This document shows, piece after piece, positions 1-8,544 of a stretch of DNA of 22,781 nucleotides. Every line of letters starts with the position of its first letter. The first letter of the stretch is position 1. The stretch lies in the IMG/VR virus record IMGVR_UViG_3300036770_006261, positions 1 to 22,781 of that record; one strand, 5' to 3'. Below the pieces are notes generated by a model, which saw only the letters and a program-made list of their open reading frames with translations, had not been told where the DNA came from and ran no database searches. A program made the translations under genes and the position numbers. This stretch comes from a virus.

Positions 1-154
1 CAGGGTCGTTCCATCTCTTCAAGTCACGCGCCCCGCAATCACAAATGTATTCGGGTTCGTACTTAGGTTGTTCTTTCTTAGGTTCTTGCCATGTTGCAAT
101 TATCCAAAGCGGATAAACGACACAGGTCAGAACGTAGGCGTAGGCGTATCTCAT
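1..154 (-). CDS. Small membrane protein, 3' end outside the window
   Basis: Reading leftward from the ATG at 154-152, the frame stays open to the window edge (51 codons visible). The start shares one base with the stop of the gene at 154-378 (TGATG), a usual sign of translational coupling. The N-terminus is a hydrophobic stretch, MRYAYAYVLTCVVYPLWIIA, which reads as a single membrane-spanning segment or uncleaved signal anchor. It is followed by a charged Pro/Lys/Glu stretch and then CDCGARD, a possible metal-binding start. The function is not recognised. The C-terminus is missing, so length and domain content cannot be judged. Confidence 0.6.
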   Translation of the reverse strand, partial: MRYAYAYVLTCVVYPLWIIATWQEPKKEQPKYEPEYICDCGARDLKRWNDP

Positions 155-378
155 CAGAAGGGACATTCAATGTTGGGTATCTTCTCCAGTTTCGGTCTTA
201 GCGAAGTCAATGACACGAACTTTCCGCGTATGCAGAATCCTTTGGAACGTCCGTTCAATACCTGTCTGACTATTCTGCCTCTCTTGGTGTTTATGCAGAT
301 GCCATCAGAATCAAACTGGTATTCGTTAGCTTCTTTATGTCGCCACTTTAAATCGTAAGTAGTTGATATTGAATGCAT
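154..378 (-). CDS. Conserved-looking small phage protein, unknown function
   Basis: This is a 74-residue protein starting with ATG in an A-rich context (AAGCAAAATG), typical of Bacteroidota start sites. It resembles, from memory, small phage proteins that carry a pattern of the kind 'cINxKxGxxxxxxLNGxSxGfCIxGKFxSLxxLRxxLxKI' and end in CPF. Here the pattern is visible from CINTKRGR to KIPNIECPF. The three cysteines could be structural. There are no membrane segments. It lies 31 bases downstream of the 410-724 gene and is coupled to the next gene on its left, so these genes probably form one leftward operon. No function is assigned. Confidence 0.7.
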   Translation of the reverse strand: MHSISTTYDLKWRHKEANEYQFDSDGICINTKRGRIVRQVLNGRSKGFCIRGKFVSLTSLRPKLEKIPNIECPF

Positions 379-409
379 TTTGCTTTAGTCTTTATGTACA
401 TATCAGATG

Positions 410-724
410 TTATAAGCCATTTTGAAAGACAGCCACTCGCTTCAATCCATTTGGATCAACTGAAATTAATTTGTATTTATCAGCAAACCTTTTTAAGATG
501 CCATACTCTTTTGATTCGCTCGTTCTTTGTGGCAAAATCACATTGAAATACTTTCTTTCGTTATGTTCTTTTATGCCTGTGAAATAGTCGCATAATTCCA
601 ACTTTAAACCTGTTTGCTCCTTAATCAATTCCAATGTTTCAGGAATAGAAAAACGGCTTATAACAGGTGTTTGGCAAAAGCTGGGCTTCTGTGCTAAATC
701 AACGTTTGTGCTATCTACAATCAT
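410..724 (-). CDS. Hypothetical protein, 104 aa
   Basis: The ATG start follows an A/T-rich leader (TTTAAAACAAATG). The protein is soluble and mixed alpha/beta. The middle (SIPETLELIKEQTGLKLELC) reads as an amphipathic helix followed by a strand, and the C-terminus as strand-rich. The family is not recognised. It is preceded by palindrome E7 at 752-790, and its own stop is followed by a short AT-rich gap with only the remnant TTATAAC. Clean start context and placement in a run of same-strand genes support it as a real gene, but nothing points to a role. Confidence 0.6.
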   Translation of the reverse strand: MIVDSTNVDLAQKPSFCQTPVISRFSIPETLELIKEQTGLKLELCDYFTGIKEHNERKYFNVILPQRTSESKEYGILKRFADKYKLISVDPNGLKRVAVFQNGL

Positions 725-751
725 TTGTTTTAAATTTAAAGTTTTGTACTA

Positions 752-790
752 TTAATGCCCAGCCTTCGCCAAGCACCGATACGTTAGGCG
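752..790 (-). repeat. attC-like element E7
   Basis: Read leftward, GCCTAACGTATCGGTGCTTGG starts at the end of the 784-1020 gene, whose stop TAA lies inside the GCCTAAC box. The first 16 bases from CTAACG match element E3 at all but one position. The right half is short and lacks a clear GTTRGCG box, so the copy may be degenerate. Confidence 0.5.
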
Positions 791-1020
791 TTATTGCTAC
801 ATTTCGCCTCAACATTATTCTGTTCATTTATCCATTCAAGTTTTTCAGTAGCACAACAAGCACATACTTTCCTTCTTGGTTCTTTAGGGTATCGACCTCT
901 AATTTCAGTCAGTTCTTGTCCACAAACCTTGCAGTATTCTTTCCGCAACAAACGCCTAACAATGTGTATAAACCATTGCTTTATAGTGCGTCTGCCAAGT
1001 TTCTTTTTTCTATTAAACAT
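784..1020 (-). CDS. Small zinc-finger-like basic protein
   Basis: This 78-residue protein has a strongly basic N-terminal 28 residues (RKKK, RR, RRLLRK). Two cysteine groups follow: C30-x2-C33 in EYCKVCGQ and C53-x-C55-C56 in KVCACCATE. The 19-residue spacing fits a small zinc ribbon or treble-clef fold that could bind nucleic acid. That is an inference from cysteine spacing only. The stop codon is embedded in the attC-like box of E7. The start lies 30 bases left of element E6. No enzyme motif is visible. Confidence 0.65.
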   Translation of the reverse strand: MFNRKKKLGRRTIKQWFIHIVRRLLRKEYCKVCGQELTEIRGRYPKEPRRKVCACCATEKLEWINEQNNVEAKCSNNA

Positions 1021-1051
1021 ATCTGTATTTTTAAGTTTATTGTTTCAATCA

Positions 1052-1082
1052 CGCAACGGTTCATACACTCGACCGTTAGCAG
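1052..1082 (-). repeat. attC-like element E6
   Basis: A perfect 6-bp inverted repeat, AACGGT at 1055-1060 and ACCGTT at 1072-1077, is enclosed by boxes reading leftward GCTAACGG and CCGTTGCG. It begins a few bases after the TAG stop of the dATP/dGTP diphosphohydrolase-type gene. Confidence 0.5.
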
Positions 1083-1087
1083 CAATG

Positions 1088-1507
1088 CTACGGACACGTA
1101 CACACACCATTTTCATCCCAATTACCACAGCATCGCTTGTTTTTGTCTTTGTGCCTTGTATCAAAATCGGGCTTAAAACGCTGCATATATGATAAGAACA
1201 TTGCATTGCAAAGTATATGCCCTGTGTGTGGTAATCCACTTTCAGGGTCTATATCTTCACCCCTTATGTATGCTGTCATGTGACGCATCATACTTTCAAA
1301 TATTTCGGGTGTTTTAAGCCCTTTCTTCCAGTTATTGTCTGCATACTTTTTAGCCCCAAATTCAAGCACTTTAACCATATCTTCTAAGGCATCAAAGTCA
1401 ACAAGCGACCAACGCAATTTACCTCCATTGTAACGCAAAGCACTGCTGCTAACAGCACCTTGAACGCTATTGGCGGCTTCGTTTTTCAATTTATCTTTTG
1501 TACTCAT
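1088..1507 (-). CDS. dATP/dGTP diphosphohydrolase-type protein (DUF5664-like)
   Basis: This 139-residue protein carries the N-terminal signature of the phage dATP/dGTP diphosphohydrolase family: RYNGGKLRWSLVDF at about 25-38, then LEFGAKKYADNNW at about 49-61. A helical segment with RHMTAYIRGED and SGLPHTGHILCNAMFL follows at about 74-106. Family members hydrolyse dNTPs to dNMP and pyrophosphate, in a fold related to MazG. The likely role is shaping the nucleotide pool during infection. The C-terminus has an unusual cysteine cluster (CCGNWDENGVCTCP) that could bind a metal and is not obviously part of the catalytic domain. The ATG sits after a long AT-rich leader. Elements E5 and E6 flank the gene, as in a cassette. 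Confidence 0.8.
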   Translation of the reverse strand: MSTKDKLKNEAANSVQGAVSSSALRYNGGKLRWSLVDFDALEDMVKVLEFGAKKYADNNWKKGLKTPEIFESMMRHMTAYIRGEDIDPESGLPHTGHILCNAMFLSYMQRFKPDFDTRHKDKNKRCCGNWDENGVCTCP

Positions 1508-1548
1508 ATTAAGTATTTGTTTTTTAATTAAAGTTTAGTAGTTTAAAT

Positions 1549-1582
1549 CGCCAACAGCGTCAAGCTGCGGCACGTTATGTGG
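1549..1582 (-). repeat. attC-like element E5
   Basis: Read leftward this is CATAACGTGCCGCAGC, then a short loop, then GCTGTTGGCG. CAGC at 1555-1558 pairs with GCTG at 1564-1567, and the outer GCC pairs with GGC. It is a short, nearly minimal attC-like hairpin just after the stop of the 1585-1806 gene. Confidence 0.55.
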
Positions 1583-1584
1583 CA

Positions 1585-1806
1585 TTAGCCAATCACTAAC
1601 AATATTCTTCTACTACAACTTACGGGGCTTGTTGTTCCACTATGGCTTTGTATTACCTTTCGTTTATCTCCATCCGCAAAACCCCACATTACTAATGGAT
1701 ACTGTATTAAACTTGGGTGTACCAAATCGTCTAAATACAAGTCATTTTCTTTAATGGGTTTTGCTGTTGTTATATACAACTTTTTATTCATCCAATGTAT
1801 TTTCAT
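1585..1806 (-). CDS. Hypothetical protein, 73 aa
   Basis: A longer reading with an upstream ATG at 1827 exists, but its first seven codons overlap the right-hand box of element E4. The ATG at 1806 (AATTATTATG-like context before MKIHWMNKK) is therefore preferred. The segment KKLYITTAKPIKENDLYLDD resembles, from memory, phage proteins that begin 'KLYIISDxEIKEGDWF'; the function of those is unknown. The rest contains a short basic and serine-rich stretch (QSHSGTTSPVSCSRR). There is no signal peptide and no recognised motif. Confidence 0.6.
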   Translation of the reverse strand: MKIHWMNKKLYITTAKPIKENDLYLDDLVHPSLIQYPLVMWGFADGDKRKVIQSHSGTTSPVSCSRRILLVIG

Positions 1807-1817
1807 AATAATAACGC

Positions 1818-1950
1818 CACATAACACTATTTATAAGCAATAGCCGTGTCAGTGGGCTTATTTAAGCTATTGCTTCTAATTAATATTTTAGCGTAAAGAT
1901 AAGTCAGTGCTTTGAAATCGGCTACTGCTCATACATTTTACGTTACCGGT
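1818..1950 (-). repeat. attC-like element E4
   Basis: A long imperfect palindrome of about 130 bases. GCAATAGCCG at 1837-1846 faces CGGCTACTGC at 1919-1928, pairing 9 of 10; the odd pair is a G-T wobble on the leftward strand. The outer boxes, read leftward, are GGTAACG and GTTATGTGGCG. The size and symmetry match Vibrio-type attC sites better than a terminator. Confidence 0.55.
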
Positions 1951-1954
1951 CAGG

Positions 1955-2185
1955 CTATGACACCATATATCGTTTGACATGCTTCTCATGAGAAACGCTT
2001 CTATCTTCGTTCAAATCGCTTCTTTTTATTAGGCGAAACGAAACTGCACAAGTAAACCAATTCAATGACCATACACGAGTGTATGACCAGCCCTGAACAT
2101 TTTTGGTGAAGCTGAATATTGGCAACAAATCTTTGAAGCGAAATCCTGCATACCAGCTTTTGTAAAAGTTAAATTCTATTGTCAT
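1955..2185 (-). CDS. Aromatic-rich hypothetical protein, 76 aa
   Basis: The ATG at 2185 follows AAATAAAATG, a usual Bacteroidota start context. The first 55 residues are very rich in Phe, Trp and Tyr: FNFYKSWYAGFRFKD, then GWSYTRVWSLNWFTCAVSF. This gives an alternating strand-like pattern, and the family resembles, from memory, small phage proteins with 'GWSYTRV' motifs of unknown function. The C-terminal 20 residues are basic and polar. A membrane or beta-sheet role is possible but unproven. Elements E3 and E4 flank the gene. Confidence 0.6.
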   Translation of the reverse strand: MTIEFNFYKSWYAGFRFKDLLPIFSFTKNVQGWSYTRVWSLNWFTCAVSFRLIKRSDLNEDRSVSHEKHVKRYMVS

Positions 2186-2208
2186 TTTATTTTGATTTGT
2201 GAAGCCCG

Positions 2209-2347
2209 AACCGCTAACATGTGCTATACAATATGGCGGCTGACGTGCTTCGGTTAAACATTTTTACTTAATTCAACTGTGGTGCTTCGTATTGGACTTT
2301 CGTGCTGAAAATCCGCCACATCGTATAGCACCGACACGTTAGCGGTT
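2209..2347 (-). repeat. attC-like element E3, the clearest copy
   Basis: A 139-base imperfect palindrome with two separated arms on each side. AACCGCTAAC at 2209-2218 faces GTTAGCGGTT at 2338-2347. GTGCTATAC at 2221-2229 faces GTATAGCAC at 2323-2331, and GGCGG at 2235-2239 faces CCGCC at 2313-2317. The spacers between arms differ in length (2 versus 6 bases), as in the R/L boxes of integron attC sites. The TAA stop of the lipoprotein gene lies inside the R-type box. The centre contains the direct repeat GTGCTTCG at 2245 and 2282. Confidence 0.65.
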
Positions 2348-2647
2348 ATTAATCCGATAATCAATAATTCCGTTTCTAACAGTAATTCCACTTCTTGATT
2401 TTGTGAACCAATTAGCACCACTTCTATCGTATCGTAATGAATAACTACCTCTGTGAGTGTCAATGAAAAAATATGCGTCTTCTGGTAGCGAATATGTTGC
2501 ACGTATCCATTCGCCATTTATTTTTTGCATACTTATATCAAAGTTTTTTTCATTGACCGATTTTCCGCAACCTGATAAAATAACAACCGCTAACAAGGCA
2601 TAAAAGAAATGCCGAGTTCCTACTAAAATTGATGTTCTGTGTTTCAT
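2339..2647 (-). CDS. Predicted lipoprotein, 102 aa
   Basis: The start at 2647 (AAATATGAAACAC) is chosen because it places a classic lipoprotein signal at the N-terminus: basic MKHRTS, a hydrophobic core around FFYALLAVVI, then the lipobox LSGC with C27 as the predicted lipidated residue. The upstream extension to 2764 would bury this signal and runs through palindrome E2. The mature part of about 75 residues has no recognised domain. Phage-encoded lipoproteins are known to act in superinfection exclusion or lysogenic conversion. That role is only a possibility here. The stop is embedded in attC-like element E3. Confidence 0.7.
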   Translation of the reverse strand: MKHRTSILVGTRHFFYALLAVVILSGCGKSVNEKNFDISMQKINGEWIRATYSLPEDAYFFIDTHRGSYSLRYDRSGANWFTKSRSGITVRNGIIDYRINNR

Positions 2648-2687
2648 ATTTACTTTCGTTTTAAATTCATAATTTGTACTTCTAATT

Positions 2688-2724
2688 TCGGCACTTCTCT
2701 TATGCCCGACCGTTGTGCGCAATG
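2688..2724 (-). repeat. attC-like element E2
   Basis: Read leftward, CACAACGGTCGGGCATAAG is followed after a short loop by GTGCCG; CGGGCA pairs with TGCCG with one bulged base. It starts right after the TAG of the 2725-2922 gene. It shares AACGGTCGG with E6-type boxes and lacks a clear right-hand GTT box. Confidence 0.4.
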
Positions 2725-2922
2725 CTACTTTTCTGCATCTAATTGAGATTTCACAGCCATCCACTTGGCTTTTTCACTTGCCATTATTTCTTCTTTGGTC
2801 ATTTCTGTTTTTAGTCTTGGTTTGTCATTTACATAATCCCAAAGCCAAGTTACTTTTTTACCATTTGCATCACTCACTTCCATTGAGCCATACATTTTAC
2901 AAATTCTTGCTAACCCTCCCAT
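2725..2922 (-). CDS. Conserved-looking small phage protein, 65 aa
   Basis: The ATG follows AATTAAAATG. The N-terminal MGGLARICKMYGSMEV, the central WLWDYVNDKPRLKTEMTKEE and the Lys/Glu-rich helical C-terminus resemble a small protein remembered from Bacteroidota phages, usually annotated as hypothetical. The single Cys and high aromatic content in the middle suggest a compact beta-hairpin followed by a helix. No catalytic motif is seen. It sits between elements E1 and E2 in the leftward cassette-like run. Confidence 0.7.
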   Translation of the reverse strand: MGGLARICKMYGSMEVSDANGKKVTWLWDYVNDKPRLKTEMTKEEIMASEKAKWMAVKSQLDAEK

Positions 2923-2946
2923 TTTAATTAGTTTTTATCGTTAATA

Positions 2947-3040
2947 AACCGCTACTGGCTATAACAGCGGTTTTGTGCAAGCTGCCCGACCGCTCAATGC
3001 CAACGCTTCGCAGCCTGACACAAAGCCGCCAACCGTTGGG
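2947..3040 (-). repeat. attC-like element E1
   Basis: Nested imperfect palindromes. GGTTTTGTG at 2969-2977 pairs with CACAAAGCC at 3019-3027 (9 bp, one wobble). GCTGC at 2981-2985 pairs with GCAGC at 3010-3014. AACCGCT at 2947 pairs with AGCGGTT at 2966. Read leftward it opens with CCCAACGG two bases after the stop of the 3042-3248 gene. Confidence 0.55.
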
Positions 3041-3041
3041 A

Positions 3042-3248
3042 TCAATTGCCTTCGGGCGCAGAATCGTTTAAAACCCATTTAAGTAGGTCAATTTGACCGC
3101 TATAAACACCAACGCCAGTTTGTTTGGCCAACCATAACATCTTTTTGTTAGGGCATCCATTATCTGCTTCCGTAGTTAAGCGTTCAAATTTTTCACGGGC
3201 TAAAAACAGCTCAAGTAATCGAGCCTTAATTTCTTCTTCTGATCTCAT
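3042..3248 (-). CDS. Hypothetical protein, 68 aa
   Basis: An overlapping GTG one codon upstream (3251) is possible, but the ATG at 3248 is preferred. The N-terminal 35 residues (RSEEEIKARLLELFLAREKF) form a charged amphipathic helix. A cysteine-containing turn (GCPNKKMLWLAK) and a second helix (SGQIDLLKWVLN) follow. This helix-turn-helix-like outline is common in small phage proteins; no specific family is recognised. It is the most upstream gene of the leftward run. No TAnnTTTG promoter was found before it. Confidence 0.65.
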   Translation of the reverse strand: MRSEEEIKARLLELFLAREKFERLTTEADNGCPNKKMLWLAKQTGVGVYSGQIDLLKWVLNDSAPEGN

Positions 3249-3297
3249 CACAAATGGGTTTTAAACTTTACTTCTGCTCAATTGATCCATAACGATC

Positions 3298-3316
3298 CGT
3301 GGCCGAATGTGCCACG
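3298..3316. other. Perfect inverted repeat between gene and tRNA
   Basis: CGTGGC at 3298-3303 and GCCACG at 3311-3316 form a 6-bp hairpin with a 7-base loop, downstream of the leftward tRNA-like gene. No T-run follows on either strand, so a processing or weak termination role is a guess. Confidence 0.35.
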
Positions 3317-3340
3317 TCTTACCTTTCTGCAACCTCACTG

Positions 3341-3483
3341 TAATCAGGACAGGATTCGAACCTGTATAACCTATAATAGTTGGTGTAAGTTATTTAATCC
3401 ATTAGATAAGGTAATCAATCCACTAACCAACATTGATAATCTCTCTCTTCTAACTTCTGCGTCTGCCATTCCGCCACCTGACT
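3341..3483 (-). tRNA. tRNA-Leu-like gene (inferred UAA) with about 53 extra bases in the anticodon loop
   Basis: Leftward strand. The 7-bp acceptor AGTCAGG/CCTGATT (one G-T pair) has discriminator A at 3341. TGGCGGAATGGCAGACGC is a textbook Leu/Ser-type D arm. ACAGG-TTCGAAT-CCTGT is a perfect T arm. A long variable region with an ACC/GGT stem marks a type II tRNA. The only anticodon stem that forms is AAGTT/AACTT, and it encloses 60 bases instead of 7. Removing 53 bases leaves loop ATTAAAT, with anticodon UAA and a 90-base body, a normal Leu size. A32 and two bases between D and anticodon stems are atypical. CCA is not encoded. It could be a spliced tRNA, a decaying tRNA or a tRNA-like RNA domain. 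Confidence 0.55.
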
Positions 3484-3539
3484 GTAAAAAAGAAACCATT
3501 CTGTCCACTCCAATGTCTGTAATGAATCAGAACGGTTTC
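3484..3539 (-). terminator. 12-bp hairpin followed by T6 on the leftward strand
   Basis: GAAACCATTCTG at 3492-3503 faces CAGAACGGTTTC at 3528-3539. The one mismatch on the plus strand (A-C) becomes a G-U pair in a leftward transcript, giving 12 continuous pairs. The leftward strand then reads six T. The 24-base loop is long for a terminator. If real, it ends a leftward transcript just before the tRNA-like gene. It may instead be the first helix of the adjacent structured region. Confidence 0.45.
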
Positions 3540-3553
3540 AATAAGATGAGAGA
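3539..3553. repeat. 15-base direct repeat, copy 1
   Basis: CAATAAGATGAGAGA, identical to the copy at 3736-3750. It joins the end of one helix to the 5' strand of the next (TGAGAGAG from 3547). Confidence 0.85.
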
Positions 3554-3623
3554 GCTTCGTGTCTTCCACCCACATTCTCTTAATGTGGTCATTATGGTCA
3601 TTAGCTGATACACGTGTGTGTCC

Positions 3624-3635
3624 ACTCTCTCAATA
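3624..3635. repeat. 12-base direct repeat, copy 1
   Basis: ACTCTCTCAATA, identical to 3867-3878. It supplies the 3' strand that pairs with the TGAGAGA part of the 15-base repeat and ends in the A/T linker. Confidence 0.8.
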
Positions 3636-3641
3636 GAATAT

Positions 3642-3736
3642 GTTCCCGCAAGGTTGCACCTTGAATGCTGTGTCCTGCAACTATTAAGCATTGACAGTCT
3701 CTTGGGAACTAACCAAGCCTGCAATTGGACGGGAAC
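3642..3736. ncRNA. 95-base cloverleaf-like domain
   Basis: GTTCCCG/CGGGAAC (7 bp) closes three arms: CAAGG-loop-CCTTG at 3649-3663, AATGC/GCATT at 3664-3668 and 3688-3692, and CTTGG-7-base loop-CCAAG at 3701-3717. All pairs are Watson-Crick. The first loop TTGCA (3654-3658) can pair with TGCAA at 3720-3724 or 3676-3680, a possible pseudoknot. It lacks tRNA consensus bases in D and T loops on either strand. Confidence 0.5.
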
Positions 3737-3750
3737 AATAAGATGAGAGA
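3736..3750. repeat. 15-base direct repeat, copy 2
   Basis: CAATAAGATGAGAGA, exact copy of 3539-3553, again placed between the end of a closed domain and the start of the next helix. Confidence 0.85.
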
Positions 3751-3866
3751 TCAGAGCAGCATGTCAACTATTCAACTCCTTCATTACAAAGGCATTTATT
3801 GCTGATAGCATCCTAAGCATCGCTGTCAGGACTCTTACTCTGTAAATACAACCTTCACCTGTTGTA

Positions 3867-3878
3867 ACTCTCTCAATA
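3867..3878. repeat. 12-base direct repeat, copy 2
   Basis: ACTCTCTCAATA, exact copy of 3624-3635, closing the fourth helical domain with TGAGAGA at 3744-3750. Confidence 0.8.
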
Positions 3879-4240
3879 AATTATCACCTGCCAGATTGCC
3901 ATCTCTGGATGCTTCATCACAACAACCGAATCGAACGGTACATTCTTGACCTAACTACCCGTTAGTGCCACAGTTGCTCCACACAGAACAACAGACAACG
4001 CTCTTTGGCTAGAACTATCATCAGGGGTTTGAAGAAGATCGTCAACTTCAGGGACACACCTTTAGTGGATGACCGTCTATTGTTCTCAGGTGAATTTCAA
4101 CAAATTGTCTTTCTTTCTTTGTACATATCATTATAGTTTACACTCTCCTGTGTGGTTGGATGCTGCAGCATCTGATTGTTACTATCTGTACAACTTGTTG
4201 CTTTACTCTTTCAACCAATGTGTTGCCACTTGATTGGAAA

Positions 4241-5308
4241 CATCCCAGGTCTTTTTAGGACCTGGGATGTGAAGAAGGGCATTATACCACATGCCAATAC
4301 AGCAACATCATGATATTGATGATGTGCTGTATGAGTGCGATGCTTACAAGAACCGATATTCCAATGCTCCGAAAATAGGAAAGAACACGATGATATAAGG
4401 TGTACTCTCCTCCACTACAATAGATATTGTAGGGATGATCTGGATCGTCTGATGAAATCTCCACATTACAAATGTATTAAAAGGTTAGTGATCACGTGAT
4501 TACTGGTAAAAAAAAATTCATCCATAGGGTACCACTCCCCTATGGATATAGCCCTGATGACCTCACTTATGATGTCATCGGGTTCATATGCAAGCCCGTT
4601 CCTCTTGCAGTATTGCTGAATGGTCTACTTCCGTCAGTGGTGACGGCACACATTGAAATATATGATGCATGGTGTGCACATGCAGCACTGCTCTCCAGAT
4701 GTGGTCAATAGGGAACGATCCTATTTATCGTGAAGAGCCCTGTAAATGATCGTATGTTCAGGGCAGGAAGCTGAGAACATTACGAAAGGTGCGAACAATG
4801 TGAAAAGTGCCTGTATCATGATGTACGGGGATGATGATGTCACCCACAGTATATCGAATTGGAACAGACAGAATGTCCATACCGATACAAGAAGCACAAG
4901 TGGCATTGAACAGATGAACAGAAAATCAAAGATGTAGTATCTCATTGTACTATTGATATTATGAATGATGCAATAAGTTCATAGGTCTATTGCTTAACCT
5001 TCAATCCGATAATCCCTCTGCACTCAGTTGTAATAGCTCTGTTTCTGATGCTATTTAAGTATTCCCTTCCAATTAATAGTTATTGTGCATGTTTCAGCGT
5101 CCTACTAATAAGCTGCATTTTGGCAATTAGACCAAGGCTGCATTAAACTCTGCTTACCACATAGAGTTCACTTTATTAATCAGGTGGTTTCACATCTGAG
5201 TTGAGTGCAGTCTCTCTTGAGCTGGTTGTCTCTCAGAAGTCTTCATATCCACGTGAGAATGGTGCATTAACATAGGGAAGAGAGTCTATCACTTACTCAT
5301 CTCTTCCC
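4241..5308. ncRNA. Hairpin-dense non-coding stretch
   Basis: No supported gene. Notable hairpins: 4241-4269 (11 bp), 4299-4330 (12 bp, one bulge), 4415-4432 (8 bp), 4434-4449 (6 bp), 4487-4504, 4521-4546 (9 bp), 4553-4582 (9 bp), 4589-4609, 4631-4646, 4646-4677, 4707-4725, 4737-4764, 4970-4993, 5032-5055, 5146-5168, 5195-5237 and 5275-5308 (9 bp). Six-bp stems are expected by chance at this length, but several stems of 8-12 bp within 1 kb are not. Wobbles at 4434-4449, 4487-4504 and 4553-4582 are G-U only in plus-strand RNA. It may continue the 3492-4269 RNA or be a separate element. Confidence 0.35.
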
Positions 5309-5370
5309 ATAAGATCTTGAAGACAATGTGAATGCCTTCACCTCTTCATTGGTTCAGAGGATTTAAAGAA

Positions 5371-5399
5371 GGTCACACCCTCCGAAGAGGAGTGCGACC
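5371..5399 (-). terminator. Hairpin with UUCG tetraloop, leftward
   Basis: On the leftward strand GGTCGCAC, a bulged T, CCTC, loop TTCG, GAGG and GTGTGACC form a stem of 12 pairs with one G-T wobble. It is capped by the very stable C(UUCG)G loop and followed by TTCTTTAAAT. The plus strand would have a mismatch and no UUCG loop. It is a plausible terminator for leftward transcripts. Confidence 0.55.
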
Positions 5400-5734
5400 G
5401 ACCAAAATACTGTACACTAACTATGCGTTAGCGTTGATGATGTACTCAACAAGGGTGACAACCCCGTTGATGATGACAAATGTTCTCATGGTCGGAGACA
5501 TATTGTGGTGTGAACAACGGTACACCTGTTCACTTGGTGTGTGTGGAAAGGTCCATATATTAAAGTATACATGAGGTGTGTATACTGGTGATGTAAAGAT
5601 GAGGTATACGCAGGGTGTGGGTTTTTATGCACGTCAAACATACATATAAAGCACACCTGCGTATCCTCAACTGCCTGTCTATCAGTGTAGTACACATCGT
5701 ACATGTGTCGTACACAAGGAAAGACGGGAACAAA
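5400..5734. other. Non-coding stretch with three strong hairpins
   Basis: No supported gene. It holds GTGAACA/TGTTCAC at 5510-5533 and GTATAC repeats at 5565-5585. An 18-pair stem with two single bulges lies at 5600-5619 and 5652-5669 (ATACGCAGG with CCTGCGTAT at its core). GTGTA..ACACAT pairs with ATGTGT..TACAC at 5685-5715 around a 2x2 internal loop and a 5-base loop. It lies downstream of the leftward 5758-6033 gene and its terminator. Confidence 0.45.
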
Positions 5735-5748
5735 GGGGGTTGCCCCCC
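5735..5748 (-). terminator. GNRA-loop terminator after the 91-aa gene
   Basis: Leftward strand GGGGG-GCAA-CCCCC followed by TTTGTT, beginning 10 bases after the TAA stop of the 5758-6033 gene. Five G-C pairs capped by a GNRA tetraloop; the T-run is short. Confidence 0.55.
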
Positions 5749-5757
5749 TGAGGAACC

Positions 5758-6033
5758 TTAGAAGGTTCTCAAGGCAGGCAATCTTCCCTCCTTCTGCTCG
5801 TGAAGCAGGTAGAAGCGACCGTTGGTACCCTCGACCTCGCTGATGCAAACGTCCTCTGCGTCAACGTTGAATTTGGTGGAGACAACGAGACCCTCGATCT
5901 GCTTGCCAACGGAATTGACTGCGAACAGCTTTCCAGTGTGAGGGTTCTTCTTGAGAGCGATGCTGTCGACCCCAAGGACTTTCTTTGCTTCAGACATGCT
6001 GAGGCGGTCAATGAATTCCAGTGTGTTTTCCAT
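5758..6033 (-). CDS. Hypothetical protein, 91 aa
   Basis: Two starts are possible: ATG at 6033 (MENTLEFIDRL) or GTG at 6069 adding 12 basic residues. The ATG is preferred because the GTG extension is Arg/Lys/Pro-rich and has no better ribosome site. The protein reads as a helix (LEFIDRLSMSEAKKVLG), a strand-rich centre with KNPHTGKLFAVNSVGK, then acidic strands ending in GRFYLLHEQKEG. This resembles a small beta-barrel or ssDNA-binding-like outline, but no family is recognised. It is the only gene between the leftward accessory region and the divergent late promoter, with its own terminator. Its G+C and codon use resemble the late genes, not the left-hand cassette genes. Confidence 0.7.
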   Translation of the reverse strand: MENTLEFIDRLSMSEAKKVLGVDSIALKKNPHTGKLFAVNSVGKQIEGLVVSTKFNVDAEDVCISEVEGTNGRFYLLHEQKEGRLPALRTF

Positions 6034-6138
6034 GATATTAGGTATATGTCCCCGTTTACGTTCGGACACCTGGGGGGACTTTCCAGATGCCTTACTCGAG
6101 TAGGGGCTTTATGTCACGGTGGTAACCACCCGCCTATA

Positions 6139-6168
6139 TGAAAAAAATTTTTTTTTGATTTTTTTTTG
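6139..6168. promoter_or_regulatory. A7-T9 and T9 tracts upstream of the late promoter
   Basis: The run reads A7, T9, GA, T9 and ends nine bases before the TTGACA box at 6177. Upstream, GGTGG/CCACC around 6119-6130 can form a small hairpin. The tract could be bent DNA or an UP-like element for the promoter, or a rightward terminator tail shielding it from incoming transcription. Confidence 0.45.
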
Positions 6169-6174
6169 CCCGAC

Positions 6175-6207
6175 ACTTGACATACGGGTTTTCGTGTTGT
6201 ATATTTG
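6175..6207 (+). promoter_or_regulatory. Late promoter P1
   Basis: TTGACA at 6177-6182 and TATATTTG at 6200-6207 with 18 bases between TTGAC and the -7 box. This fits the Bacteroidota TTG/TAnnTTTG consensus. The -33 side is extended as ACTTGACATACGG and is repeated exactly at promoter P3. Transcription should start near 6212-6215. Confidence 0.85.
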
Positions 6208-6210
6208 TAC

Positions 6211-6376
6211 CGTTCCTATTGAGAATGCAGTTTCTGAGACTGCGTAGCCCCGTAAGGCTGATCAAAGGGACGGTATACAGGTCTCAGTTGGAACTTCAGG
6301 TGACCACTCCTGTTGGATCGGGTAGATATTGATATACTCAACAAACTCCGATGTAGGTACAAGGTCTGAGTTTTTG
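6211..6376 (+). ncRNA. Structured 5' leader, possible attenuator RNA
   Basis: About 215 bases separate promoter P1 from the first ATG. CCGTTCC near 6210-6216 pairs with GGGACGG near 6267-6273 (G-U on this strand). It encloses GCAGTTT/GAGACTGC near 6227-6243 and AGCC/GGCT near 6246-6259, a three-way junction. ATCGG/CCGAT near 6317-6352 and CTCAG/CTGAG (6283-6287 and 6366-6370) lie downstream. The leader ends at an intrinsic terminator, so it is either a cis-regulatory RNA or a short stand-alone RNA. Confidence 0.5.
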
Positions 6377-6398
6377 ACTCGCAGAAGCGAGTGTTTTT
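6377..6398 (+). terminator. Intrinsic terminator/attenuator before the first late gene
   Basis: ACTCGC-AGAA-GCGAGT followed by GTTTTT, a compact textbook terminator 28 bases before the ATG at 6427. GAGT at 6368-6371 can instead pair with ACTC at 6377-6380, which would open the terminator; that competing helix is only 4 bp. Confidence 0.75.
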
Positions 6399-6426
6399 AC
6401 GAGGTGAAGTTCAAAACGCAAAAAAA

Positions 6427-6720
6427 ATGGGAGAGGAAGGCGTGGCATACCAGTATCCTGAGATTAAGTTCGAGAGGAGTGAGTCCGTTGTTGACGGTGT
6501 GAGGGTTGTGAAGGTGTTACTGTTCACACATGTGCTCAATACGGAAGATGAGTTCGTATCGGTGGAGCTTACAGGGTACTATCCGATAGAGGAGGGGAAG
6601 GATGTAGATGTGGAGACTGCCATAGGGGAGCAGTTCCATGAGAGATGTATGGATGTATATTATGGTGATAGGGACCGTCAGGATGATGTCGTAGGGGAGG
6701 ACGATGAGAGATTCATATGA
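6427..6720 (+). CDS. Hypothetical protein, first gene of the late region, 97 aa
   Basis: The frame is open from 6391, but that start lies inside the terminator, so the ATG at 6427 after a run of seven A is chosen. The protein is acidic, especially at the C-terminus (DRQDDVVGEDDERF). A beta-rich centre (VDGVRVVKVLLFTHVLNTEDEFVSVELTGYYPIEEG) is followed by a short helix. The length and acidity would fit a small regulator or DNA mimic, but there is no sequence evidence for either. It is expressed from promoter P1 through the leader RNA. A second promoter lies directly after it, so it may be a single-gene unit under its own attenuation control. Confidence 0.65.
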   Translation: MGEEGVAYQYPEIKFERSESVVDGVRVVKVLLFTHVLNTEDEFVSVELTGYYPIEEGKDVDVETAIGEQFHERCMDVYYGDRDRQDDVVGEDDERFI

Positions 6721-6746
6721 GTTTTTAATATTTTCTGTGAGATTGA

Positions 6747-6778
6747 TTGACAGAGTGTGTTATTGGTTCGTATATTTG
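6747..6778 (+). promoter_or_regulatory. Late promoter P2
   Basis: TTGACA at 6747-6752 and TATATTTG at 6771-6778, 19 bases between TTGAC and the -7 box. It lies between the first late gene and the HTH gene. It lacks the ATACGG extension found in P1 and P3. Confidence 0.8.
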
Positions 6779-6795
6779 CAGGGAGAGCAGAGCGG

Positions 6796-7194
6796 ATGGA
6801 GAGGAGATATGAGTTGAAGGGTACTGAGAGATCGTTCTTTACGATGTATGTGGAGCTTATGACCGTTCAGTCCCCGATAGACAGGTTGAGAAGACAGGAA
6901 CGTCAGGTACTTGCCGAGGTGATGTACAGGAACAGCCTGCTTGCCAAGGATTACAGGGACCCTGAGGATCCCAAGAAGTGGAGAGCCTTGTTCTCCTATG
7001 AGAGTAAGAGGGAGATGGCGGAAGCGTTGAAGATGAGTGATGCTGGTTTTGCGAACTGTCTCACTGCTCTCAGGAGACACAGACTGATGGATGCAGACAA
7101 TTATCTGCACAGGGCATTGAGGCTGTATCCAGGGAAGATGAATGCGATAGTGTTCAGTTTCAAGGTGAAGGATGAGGTCGGATCGGAGGTCTGA
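6796..7194 (+). CDS. Helix-turn-helix protein, possible regulator or small terminase
   Basis: The ATG at 6796 follows a purine-rich stretch (GGGAGAGCAGAGCGG); the frame is open further upstream but only through the promoter. The 132-residue protein is mostly helical. After an N-terminal domain with RLRRQERQVLAEVMYRN comes a clear HTH: SKREMAEALKMSDAGFANCL at about 76-95, then TALRRHRLMDAD. A short beta wing ends in IVFSFKVKD. Similar small winged-helix proteins lie just upstream of packaging genes in Bacteroidota phages (from memory). DNA binding is well supported. Whether it recognises the packaging site as a small terminase subunit or acts as a transcription regulator cannot be told. Confidence 0.7.
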   Translation: MERRYELKGTERSFFTMYVELMTVQSPIDRLRRQERQVLAEVMYRNSLLAKDYRDPEDPKKWRALFSYESKREMAEALKMSDAGFANCLTALRRHRLMDADNYLHRALRLYPGKMNAIVFSFKVKDEVGSEV

Positions 7195-7420
7195 GCTCAT
7201 AGATGAGATAGCATCCAGGTACGGTATACCGTCCTATGTGCTTGAGAAGGCCTGGAAGAATCAGTTCCAGGTGCTTAAGAAGGTGATGTCGGAATCTGAT
7301 AGGAACGATGTGGGAACCTTCAAGGTGGTATATATGAGAGGTCTCGGGAAGTTCGTACCGAGATTCGCAGAGATGCTGTACATGAACAGTAGGAAGGATG
7401 GATGTAAGGGCGATAGTTGA
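7172..7420 (+). CDS. IHF/HU-like DNA-binding protein
   Basis: This 82-residue protein overlaps the previous gene by 23 bases. The pattern IDEIASRYGIPSYVLEKAWKNQFQ (about 10-33), VLKKVMSESDRND and then VGTFKVVYMRGLGKFVPRF resembles the IHF/HU-type proteins encoded next to the structural genes of crAss-like phages. These have a helical N-terminus and a short strand with a conserved GKF before the DNA-binding arm. Host IHF bends DNA; a phage copy near packaging genes may organise DNA for packaging or replication. The arm region is short compared with bacterial IHF (about 95 residues), so the assignment is by pattern and context. Confidence 0.65.
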   Translation: MRSDRRSELIDEIASRYGIPSYVLEKAWKNQFQVLKKVMSESDRNDVGTFKVVYMRGLGKFVPRFAEMLYMNSRKDGCKGDS

Positions 7421-7631
7421 GGGGTGGACAAGATATGTCATGAAGGACCCTGTGAATGAGAAGGAGGCTCTGAGAAGGGCGGAGATATGCATCACATGCA
7501 GTGATATGAGGAATGCCATGGGTGTTCTGATCTGCGGACAGTGCGGATGTCCACTTGCTGCAAAGACGAGGAGTTCACTGTCGGACTGTCCGAACCCTGA
7601 GAGCAAAGGAGGATCAAAATGGAAGAGATGA
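7398..7631 (+). CDS. Zinc-ribbon protein, 77 aa
   Basis: It overlaps the IHF-like gene by 23 bases and the next gene by 13. Six cysteines are ordered as a metal site: C31-x2-C34, C46-x2-C49-x-C51 and C64, in the context ICITCSD, ICGQCGCPLAAKTR and DCP. The 'CGCPLAAKxRxxxxxCP' ending is typical of a small zinc-ribbon family widespread in phages, usually annotated as hypothetical. The N-terminal 28 residues form a helix rich in Arg/Glu. Zinc binding is well supported; the partner and role are unknown. Confidence 0.75.
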   Translation: MDVRAIVEGWTRYVMKDPVNEKEALRRAEICITCSDMRNAMGVLICGQCGCPLAAKTRSSLSDCPNPESKGGSKWKR

Positions 7632-7837
7632 TGAGGAATGAACAGTTCATATTGAACGTGTACAGGAACGGTGAGCTTGATGATGTCATCGAGGGTGCTG
7701 CTGCCATACGGAAGTTCATAAAGGATAAGAAGGACGGTCAGAGAAAGGGAATGAAGGAGGATGATGTGGTCATCCCTTTCAAGGGACCGTTCAGTAATGA
7801 TGATATCGGGGAGAGCAATGACAGATGGGGAGCATAG
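7619..7837 (+). CDS. Hypothetical protein, 72 aa
   Basis: It starts at an ATG (MEEMMRNEQ) 13 bases inside the previous gene, preceded by AAAGGAGG, the strongest ribosome-binding site in the area. The N-terminal half is strand/helix (QFILNVYRNGELDDVIEGAAAIRKFIKD). The C-terminal half is Lys/Asp-rich with a possible disordered tail. The first half looks like a minimal ubiquitin-like or arm-strand fold, but no family is recognised. Its position inside the coupled packaging operon suggests a role in assembly or early control. Confidence 0.6.
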   Translation: MEEMMRNEQFILNVYRNGELDDVIEGAAAIRKFIKDKKDGQRKGMKEDDVVIPFKGPFSNDDIGESNDRWGA

Positions 7838-7838
7838 G

Positions 7839-8174
7839 ATGACAGACAGTGGCATACCGTACTTTGAGAAGGACGGGGTGCGACTGTTCGTCAGTAGCGT
7901 GTCGGCAAGACTCGCGGATGAAGGGGAGACCTTCGAGGAGTACAGGCTCAGAAGGAGTATGGCGGACCGACTGTTGAAGAGATTCAAGAAAGGTAGACTG
8001 TCATGGGATCCGTACCCTTTCAAGGGTATGAGCAAAGGGCTTGTGAATACGGTTGATAACAGAGAGGCGATGGAGGCATTCATTGCACAGTACATGAGAC
8101 GGAATGAAGGAGAGATTGAAGGGAGTGACCCCGATGGGGTCGAAAGTGATCACGAAGGCGTATCTGAAGCCTGA
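7839..8174 (+). CDS. Hypothetical protein, 111 aa
   Basis: Three in-frame ATGs exist. The one at 7839 starts one base after the previous stop (7835-7837) and is preferred over 7818 and 7761, which lie inside the previous gene. The middle is Arg-rich and helical (FEEYRLRRSMADRLLKRFKKGRLSWDPYPF), then a second helix (REAMEAFIAQYMRRNEGEIE) and an acidic tail. Charge pattern and length fit a small nucleic-acid or protein-binding accessory; no family is recognised. Its 3' end overlaps the GroES-like gene by 71 bases, or 41 if that gene starts at 8134. Confidence 0.55.
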   Translation: MTDSGIPYFEKDGVRLFVSSVSARLADEGETFEEYRLRRSMADRLLKRFKKGRLSWDPYPFKGMSKGLVNTVDNREAMEAFIAQYMRRNEGEIEGSDPDGVESDHEGVSEA

Positions 8175-8544
8175 GACGACAAAGGGAGGTGTGATAGTGG
8201 ACATCAAGCGTAAGCGTGATGTGGTGCCCTGTGTCGAACTGATGGCAGTAGGTCCAGACGTGAAGCATGCGAAGGTGGGACAGTGGGGACTGTTGAACAC
8301 GAACTGCACACCAGCGGCAGTGATACATGATGGTGAGATGTACCATCTGATACAGGAGTATGACATTGCAGTGCTCTTTGATGAGCAGCCTGACCTTGAT
8401 GATATCGTAGGATCGGACACTTCGATCGTAAGGGACCTTACGGACTATGTGAGATTCGGGAAGATGAAGGCACTGAAGGCGAAGGTGAGTGAGGGCTACG
8501 AGCACGAGTTCGACAGTGACGGCAATCGTATAGTGCAGGAATGA
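8104..8544 (+). CDS. GroES-like co-chaperonin
   Basis: The protein matches the Cpn10/GroES outline in order: a first strand with KVITKAYLKPETTKGGVIV, where the TKGG of the mobile-loop base is diagnostic; then VVPCVELMAVGPDVKHAKVGQWGLLNT, equivalent to 'G.VvAVGpG....vkvGD.Vlf'; then IHDGEMYHLIQEYDIAVLFDE, equivalent to the conserved 'dgeeylivre.diLavi' end. A 40-residue extension follows the GroES fold. An alternative ATG at 8134 (MGSKVITK) gives a more typical N-terminus and is preceded by GAAGGGAG. A phage co-chaperonin, like T4 gp31, can adapt the host GroEL for folding the capsid protein; here that is inferred from context. Confidence 0.75.
   Translation: MKERLKGVTPMGSKVITKAYLKPETTKGGVIVDIKRKRDVVPCVELMAVGPDVKHAKVGQWGLLNTNCTPAAVIHDGEMYHLIQEYDIAVLFDEQPDLDDIVGSDTSIVRDLTDYVRFGKMKALKAKVSEGYEHEFDSDGNRIVQE

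Follow-up and report, generated by a model that had tools for sequence, protein, structure and literature searches.

Few large, ornate RNAs of phages are known, and their functions are not established. One account (PMC12286853) presents GOLLD as a large structured noncoding RNA of phages that often lies near tRNA islands and is conserved in one part and variable in another, and ROOL as an RNA of phages and prophages with an elaborate structure, also near tRNA islands; both form RNA-only cages according to the same text. These cages are the nearest working models for the RNA described here, although no sequence family common to them and it was found. The locus lies in an IMG/VR record of 22,781 bases (the window, that is, the whole stretch of DNA analysed). 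On its minus strand, homologues and covariance models point to a predicted RNA gene of about 613 nt at 3486-4098, whose 5' end would lie near 4098 and whose 3' end would lie at a run of U. Like GOLLD, it is a large phage RNA in a tRNA setting with conserved and variable parts; it differs in having no Rfam match and in its core of 164-293 nt, which is common to nine phage contigs and has other helices. It resembles ROOL as a phage RNA near tRNAs, and again differs in the missing Rfam match. Judging from the comparison of homologous sequences, 3486-4098 is almost certainly a real structured RNA. We consider it fairly probable that it represents a new family of structured noncoding RNA in crAss-like and other phages, acting in trans as a separate molecule and not as a leader.

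The window is assigned to a crAss-like phage because its terminase, portal and major head protein match PHROGs families and because its terminase, compared with INPHARED by tblastn, matched 158 records, with several phages named or annotated as crAss among the 20 matches listed. Bases 1-8,500 recur unchanged in an 87,417-base IMG/VR contig (IMGVR_UViG_3300035670_000112, the twin); the two are counted once among the nine members of the family. According to the open reading frames, the late genes run rightward from about 6,400, and small genes and the tRNA run leftward from about 6,070. The other members are L094 (also called G007; IMGVR_UViG_3300025066_000116), L098, L102, L104, L105, L106, L107 and L112. 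CrAss-like terminases are present on four carrier contigs, namely the window, G007, L098 and L106, the last three being 56%, 33% and 35% identical to that of the window; among the seven later contigs tested, the terminase was matched in two and the head protein in the same two. L102, L105, L107 and L112 carry phage-type replication, helicase, ligase or lysis genes (PHROGs), and the one protein of L104 compared with PHROGs had no match. No cultured phage carrying the core RNA was found. CrAss-like phages are a major group, and as far as we found their gene-free stretches have been little studied; in a Crassvirales review (PMC10136315), ribozymes are mentioned a single time, in connection with introns, and the words noncoding, non-coding and intergenic do not occur.

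A first-pass annotation of the window had pointed to a row of helices, each closing its own domain, in a stretch without genes at 3492-4269. Both observations hold, as no credible gene was seen there and the helices are present: 3492-3503/3528-3539 (12 bp, with one G-U on the minus strand), 3547-3554/3625-3632 (8 bp), 3641-3648/3730-3737 (8 bp), 3744-3750/3869-3875 (7 bp), 3884-3890/4087-4093 (7 bp), 3985-3999/4072-4086 (15 bp including G-U) and 4241-4251/4259-4269 (11 bp). The last of these, the hairpin at 4241-4269, lies outside the RNA and does not belong to it. The rarity claimed for such helices was overstated, since stems exceed those of shuffled sequences only modestly. Watson-Crick stems of at least 7 bp number 12 vs 5.7 ± 2.5 in shuffles (reached by 2 of 100), and those of at least 8 bp number 4 vs 1.7 (reached by 6 of 100). 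With G-U allowed, stems of at least 9 bp number 15 vs 11.4 on the minus strand (reached by 21 of 100 shuffles) and 4 vs 8.1 on the plus strand (96 of 100). The mean folding z of 150-nt pieces is -0.96 for 3480-4130 on the minus strand (nine pieces), compared with -0.68 for a late-gene set (35 sampled pieces). Folded as a whole, the 613 nt reach -189.7 kcal/mol on the minus strand (z -2.2, 20 shuffles) and -152.2 kcal/mol on the plus strand (z -0.75, 20 shuffles). The stem counts and folding energies of the window itself are too weak for a claim of RNA, and it is the homologues that settle the case.

G007 matches window positions 3718-3911 at 83% DNA identity, with a predicted gene on either side of the match, both pointing the same way. 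In the downstream predicted ORF, the first ATG falls within the end of the aligned region, so the RNA region and that ORF overlap unless a later ATG, which is available, is used. RNAalifold on the window and G007 gave 73 pairs for the minus strand, 12 of them double-changed and kept, and 58 pairs for the plus strand, 11 of them double-changed; given these similar counts, the comparison established pairing and not yet the strand. L098 was found by a pattern taken from block B1 (described below) and has the order B1, core, D1 and tRNA-like gene, and L102, L104, L105, L106, L107 and L112 were found by two degenerate core patterns. In the alignment of all nine sequences (A9), a five-helix structure of 35 pairs is paired in 97.4% of 306 cells, compared with 31-52% in slid controls. 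Double changes, the covariation that the first-pass annotation had proposed to look for in homologues, occur in 12 of the 35 pairs and in 22 cells vs 4.3 and 6.4 in shuffles (0 of 500), counts that lean towards the structure because it was derived from the same nine sequences and L094 was realigned by hand after a wrong first register. When the window and L094 are left out, double changes are still found in 7 pairs (reached by 2 of 500 shuffles) and 11 cells (0 of 500).

A held-out model points the same way. Model R3, built from the seven sequences other than the window and L094 and run over 15 sources (320 kb), recovers exactly 3866-4098 of the window on the minus strand, comprising the conserved core and the start of the first site-3 module (152.4 bits, E 1.1e-37), and gives L094 a score of 73.6 bits. 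On the minus strand, the pair cells of the nine sequences comprise 268 Watson-Crick, 30 G-U, 3 A-C and 5 other. The excess of G-U over A-C cells, 30 to 3, is what a minus-strand RNA should show and argues against a DNA structure or a plus-strand RNA, and the conflict in strand evidence among the helices that was noted earlier is thereby resolved; the assignment to the minus strand is nearly certain. Pairwise identity of the core is 66-95%, while that of the terminases falls to 33-35%. A small core common to phages whose terminases are only about one-third identical suggests strong selection or repeated transfer.

The core is closed by P1, in which UCACCUG (4087-4093) pairs with CAGGUGA (3884-3890), both on the minus strand as are all elements below; one P1 pair is C-G in four of the nine sequences, U-A in three and U-G in two. 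P2 (4074-4085 with 3986-3997) has 12 pairs, five of them double-changed, with 99.1% of cells paired. P3 (4017-4073, with 4068-4073 paired to 4017-4022) has six pairs, three of them double-changed, and encloses insertion site 1. The hairpins P4 (4000-4015, with 4011-4015 paired to 4000-4004) and P5 (3891-3908, with 3904-3908 paired to 3891-3895) carry loops, GCCA and UGGC respectively in most members, that can pair with each other in all nine sequences. Matched changes occur in L112 and L094. The loops of L112 are AGCCA/UGGCU, in place of the UGCCA/UGGCA pairing, a longer one or its G-U form present in four of the nine members. In L094 they are UACCU/GGGUA, and its fit to the P5 loops of the eight remaining members is poorer. 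Support for this putative loop-loop contact is moderate, because variation is limited and because some other members' P5 loops would fit the P4 loop of the window equally well or better.

Unrelated helical modules are inserted around this core at three sites. At site 1, within P3 (4017-4073), where sequences are exchanged, identity among members is 16-58%, except that L107 and L112 are 100% identical. At site 2 (3910-3980, between P2 and P5) it is 32-59%, except that L098 and L112 are 100% identical and the window and L106 are 93% identical; the window's site 2 is 34-56% identical to the other seven. Since L112 thus has the site 1 of L107 and the site 2 of L098, both at 100%, we read the pattern as exchange by recombination. 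Unlike modules could also have arisen through rapid change without exchange, which does not explain those shared at 100%. Site 3 holds four modules in a row in the window (D4, D3, D2 and D1), D1 alone in L098, and one or two modules in the others. D4 (3744-3875) is closed by UGAGAGA/UCUCUCA and contains conserved inner hairpins, whose helices show double changes relative to G007; its model R1 found the window and G007 and nothing else among 80 loci (2 of 26 records). D3 (3641-3737) is closed by UGUUCCCG/CGGGAACA, with three closing pairs double-changed in G007. D2 (3547-3632), closed by UGAGAGAG/CUCUCUCA, has borders that repeat those of D4; no homologue of it was found, and its helix is known from the window sequence alone. 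The last module, D1 (3486-3539), is a 12-bp hairpin followed by UUUUUU and is terminator-like. A hairpin with 5-6 U is present in all four members that have D1 (the window, L098, L106 and L112), its interior varying in length, and one D1 pair is G-U in the window and L106, A-U in L098 and G-C in L112. Borders of a TTATTG type are common to several modules. The proposal of a large modular structured RNA is therefore backed by covariation, by the held-out model and by module exchange.

Modules of the form GAGAGAG...CTCTCTC with a hairpin resembling a tRNA T arm were also observed in L102 (from 2946 onward) and in L107 (after 11949, minus strand). A circularly permuted tRNA is a conceivable reading of the L102 module at 2946, as a T arm and a 7-bp acceptor stem can be drawn; ARAGORN reported no tRNA in the rotated sequence.

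The neighbourhood likewise bears out the setting beside a tRNA-like gene that had been described. In the window, the hairpin and U-run end just before a tRNA-Leu(UAA)-like gene with an intron-like insert (3341-3483, minus strand), which is probably a separate product from the RNA. It scores 32 bits with the Rfam tRNA model (cut-off 29), and its acceptor stem, D arm and T arm are present; the anticodon arm is interrupted, and ARAGORN reports nothing by default and tRNA-Leu(taa) when an intron is allowed. The corresponding gene of L098 has a Leu-like D arm, yet ARAGORN calls it tRNA-Gly(ccc) with an intron, and it has no Rfam match. Two fragments have the RNA embedded in a tRNA array, namely L104 (four tRNAs by ARAGORN, four by Rfam) and L112 (nine by ARAGORN, ten by Rfam).

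This arrangement invites the main rival reading, that the RNA serves as a leader in cis: as an attenuator or a riboswitch-like 5' region, it would use its last hairpin and U-run to switch transcription of the downstream tRNA or gene. Such a role would suit the D1 hairpin and U-run directly before the tRNA-like gene in the window, L098 and L112, and, in L102, a last module with a U-run at its end directly ahead of a protein gene. However, what lies downstream varies, from a tRNA-like gene or, in L104, a normal tRNA-Leu to protein genes in L102, L105 and L094 and a second conserved RNA, RNA-B, in L106 and L107. Several members lack a clear U-run, and large exchangeable modules would be superfluous for a switch. 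The varied neighbours weaken the leader role, which we regard as rather unlikely. Modules gained and lost as units with TTATTG-type borders, and tRNA processing next door, would also fit a precursor from which each closed domain is cut out to act alone as a small RNA; we think this improbable, as the P1-closed core and the loop contact join distant parts, and neither a cleavage site nor, in the window, a match to a ribozyme family was found.

Pairing in single-stranded DNA, at an origin, packaging site or recombination site, could draw on a change of sign in GC skew near 4200, on the recombining modules and on the attC-like palindromes seen by eye at 1-3300. It is very improbable, as the excess of G-U over A-C cells fits an RNA of one strand and not DNA. 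The weak stem counts and folding energies of the window sequence by itself would fit chance helices in spacer DNA; covariation among homologues and the held-out model make that the least credible account of all, and chance is ruled out for the core and D4, D2 standing apart as it has no homologue. T-even-like promoter/stem-loop elements (PeSL) were set aside as an explanation of the conserved intergenic blocks, since these are unlike one another and there is covariation in the core.

Under the favoured reading of a separate trans-acting RNA, the gene would be read leftwards along with the tRNA and the small genes beside it. A separate transcript of roughly 300-600 nt would result, its 3' end made by the D1 terminator or by processing beside the tRNA. 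During infection the RNA may then serve as a trans-acting scaffold, in which the core would hold a fixed fold or link copies through the GCCA and UGGC loops, and the exchangeable modules would face changing partners, for example, host RNA-binding factors or defence nucleases. By analogy with GOLLD and ROOL, a particle of several RNA copies is conceivable, though we hold it doubtful. We also advance, tentatively and as something short of probable, the idea of a combinatorial phage RNA, with a fixed core and three docking sites at which recombination would shuffle helical modules from phage to phage, as with tail-fibre domains, giving each phage its own set against changing host factors. Because the outer modules are exchanged, natural recombinants offer a direct way to find the parts of the RNA that meet the host. 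If this is true and RNA-B is built alike, mosaic RNA genes would be a wider habit of these phages.

The first-pass annotation made no claim of a sequence match to GOLLD or ROOL, and the searches gave none. Rfam 15 returned only the tRNA and matches far below family cut-offs for window 3000-6400 (E ≤ 5), nothing for L098 (E ≤ 1), and only tRNAs at curated cut-offs for L102, L104, L105, L106, L107 and L112. The covariance models of GOLLD, ROOL, OLE and HEARO, named in the first-pass annotation as those to check, did not match the window at gathering score or 3000-6400 at E ≤ 5, nor did GOLLD or ROOL match L098 at E ≤ 1; Hatchet, RAGATH and other Rfam ribozyme families are absent from the matches in window 3000-6400 and L098. 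BLAST against INPHARED gave no match for window 3300-5800, window 3600-3960 or L106, only short matches to tRNA parts for L098 (20 of 21 matches listed) and, for L105, nothing beyond four weak matches of 28 bases. L104, taken together with the tRNAs that flank it, matched 379 records, of which the annotated ones among the 20 matches listed were nearly all tRNA-Leu. PLSDB plasmids gave no BLAST match, and two D4 patterns had none in a bacterial genome collection. Exact D4 18-mers occurred only in the window twin and G007, apart from a chance match in L095, and the D4 hairpin pattern only in the window twin and G007. No credible match to the core model came from L011 1000-7500, from 42 kb taken from cr127_1, cr115_1 and cr53_1, or from the initial 50 kb of Cellulophaga phage phi14:2. 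Weak core-model matches in window D3 (20 bits), L021 (18 bits) and L060 (12 bits) and a partial second copy in L102 (24 bits) were not counted, and L099, L103, L111 and L113-L118 were dropped as chance matches after reading. No description of the core RNA was listed by full-text searches of the openly available literature. Judged against Rfam 15 and that literature, the core RNA appears to belong to a family of structured noncoding RNA not described before.

Other structured RNAs, Hatchet, RAGATH-9 and RAGATH-14, occur in parts of the Crassvirales genomes cr115_1 and cr53_1 where a tRNA-Leu is also present, and Hatchet occurs in the relative L021; none of the three was found in the window. Rfam places three Hatchet copies in L132 (cr53_1), two in L131 (cr115_1) and one in L021, RAGATH-9 in both gut phages (L131 and L132), RAGATH-14 and a permuted tmRNA in L132, and DUF805b RNA in L011 and L029.

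Further noncoding elements lie nearby. Block B1 (4096-4228, minus strand), just upstream of the core and not part of it, is 87-91% identical in L011 and about 89% in L098 and contains the palindrome GATGCTGCAGCATC; B1 beside the core was not seen in the other loci read, and it is possibly a leader or a separate element. In L011, B1 is followed by RNA-B in place of the core. RNA-B was located at L098:1912, L106:10467, L107:11868 (minus) and L011:2834 (minus), with conserved blocks (AAAGGTCAAACCTACGACC...) around variable helices; it is itself mosaic, one insert being common to L106 and L107 and the other not. At 4930-5560 the window has more conserved noncoding blocks (4939-5001, 5340-5415 and 5406-5558), and in L011 the blocks matching these are separated by small leftward ORFs that are missing from the window. 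Upstream of the late genes, at 6177-6412 on the plus strand, a promoter-like sequence TTGACA...TATATTTG, presumably of the Bacteroidetes type, precedes a conserved structured element of about 200 nt that ends in a terminator-like hairpin (11 sequences, 52 predicted pairs, 13 double-changed).

In window 1-3300, palindromes that end in GTTAGGC/GTTAGCG-like sequences (e.g., 2209-2347) lie between small ORFs of the minus strand. On inspection by eye the palindromes resemble integron attC sites, whose ends are GTTRRRY and RYYYAAC, and the region is possibly a cassette cluster without an integrase; a PF00589 integrase was found in none of five contigs, including the 87-kb twin. Integron-like cassette clusters in virulent phages have already been published (PMC9892861). 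One ORF of this region (1088-1507) matches the N-terminal domain of a dATP/dGTP diphosphohydrolase.
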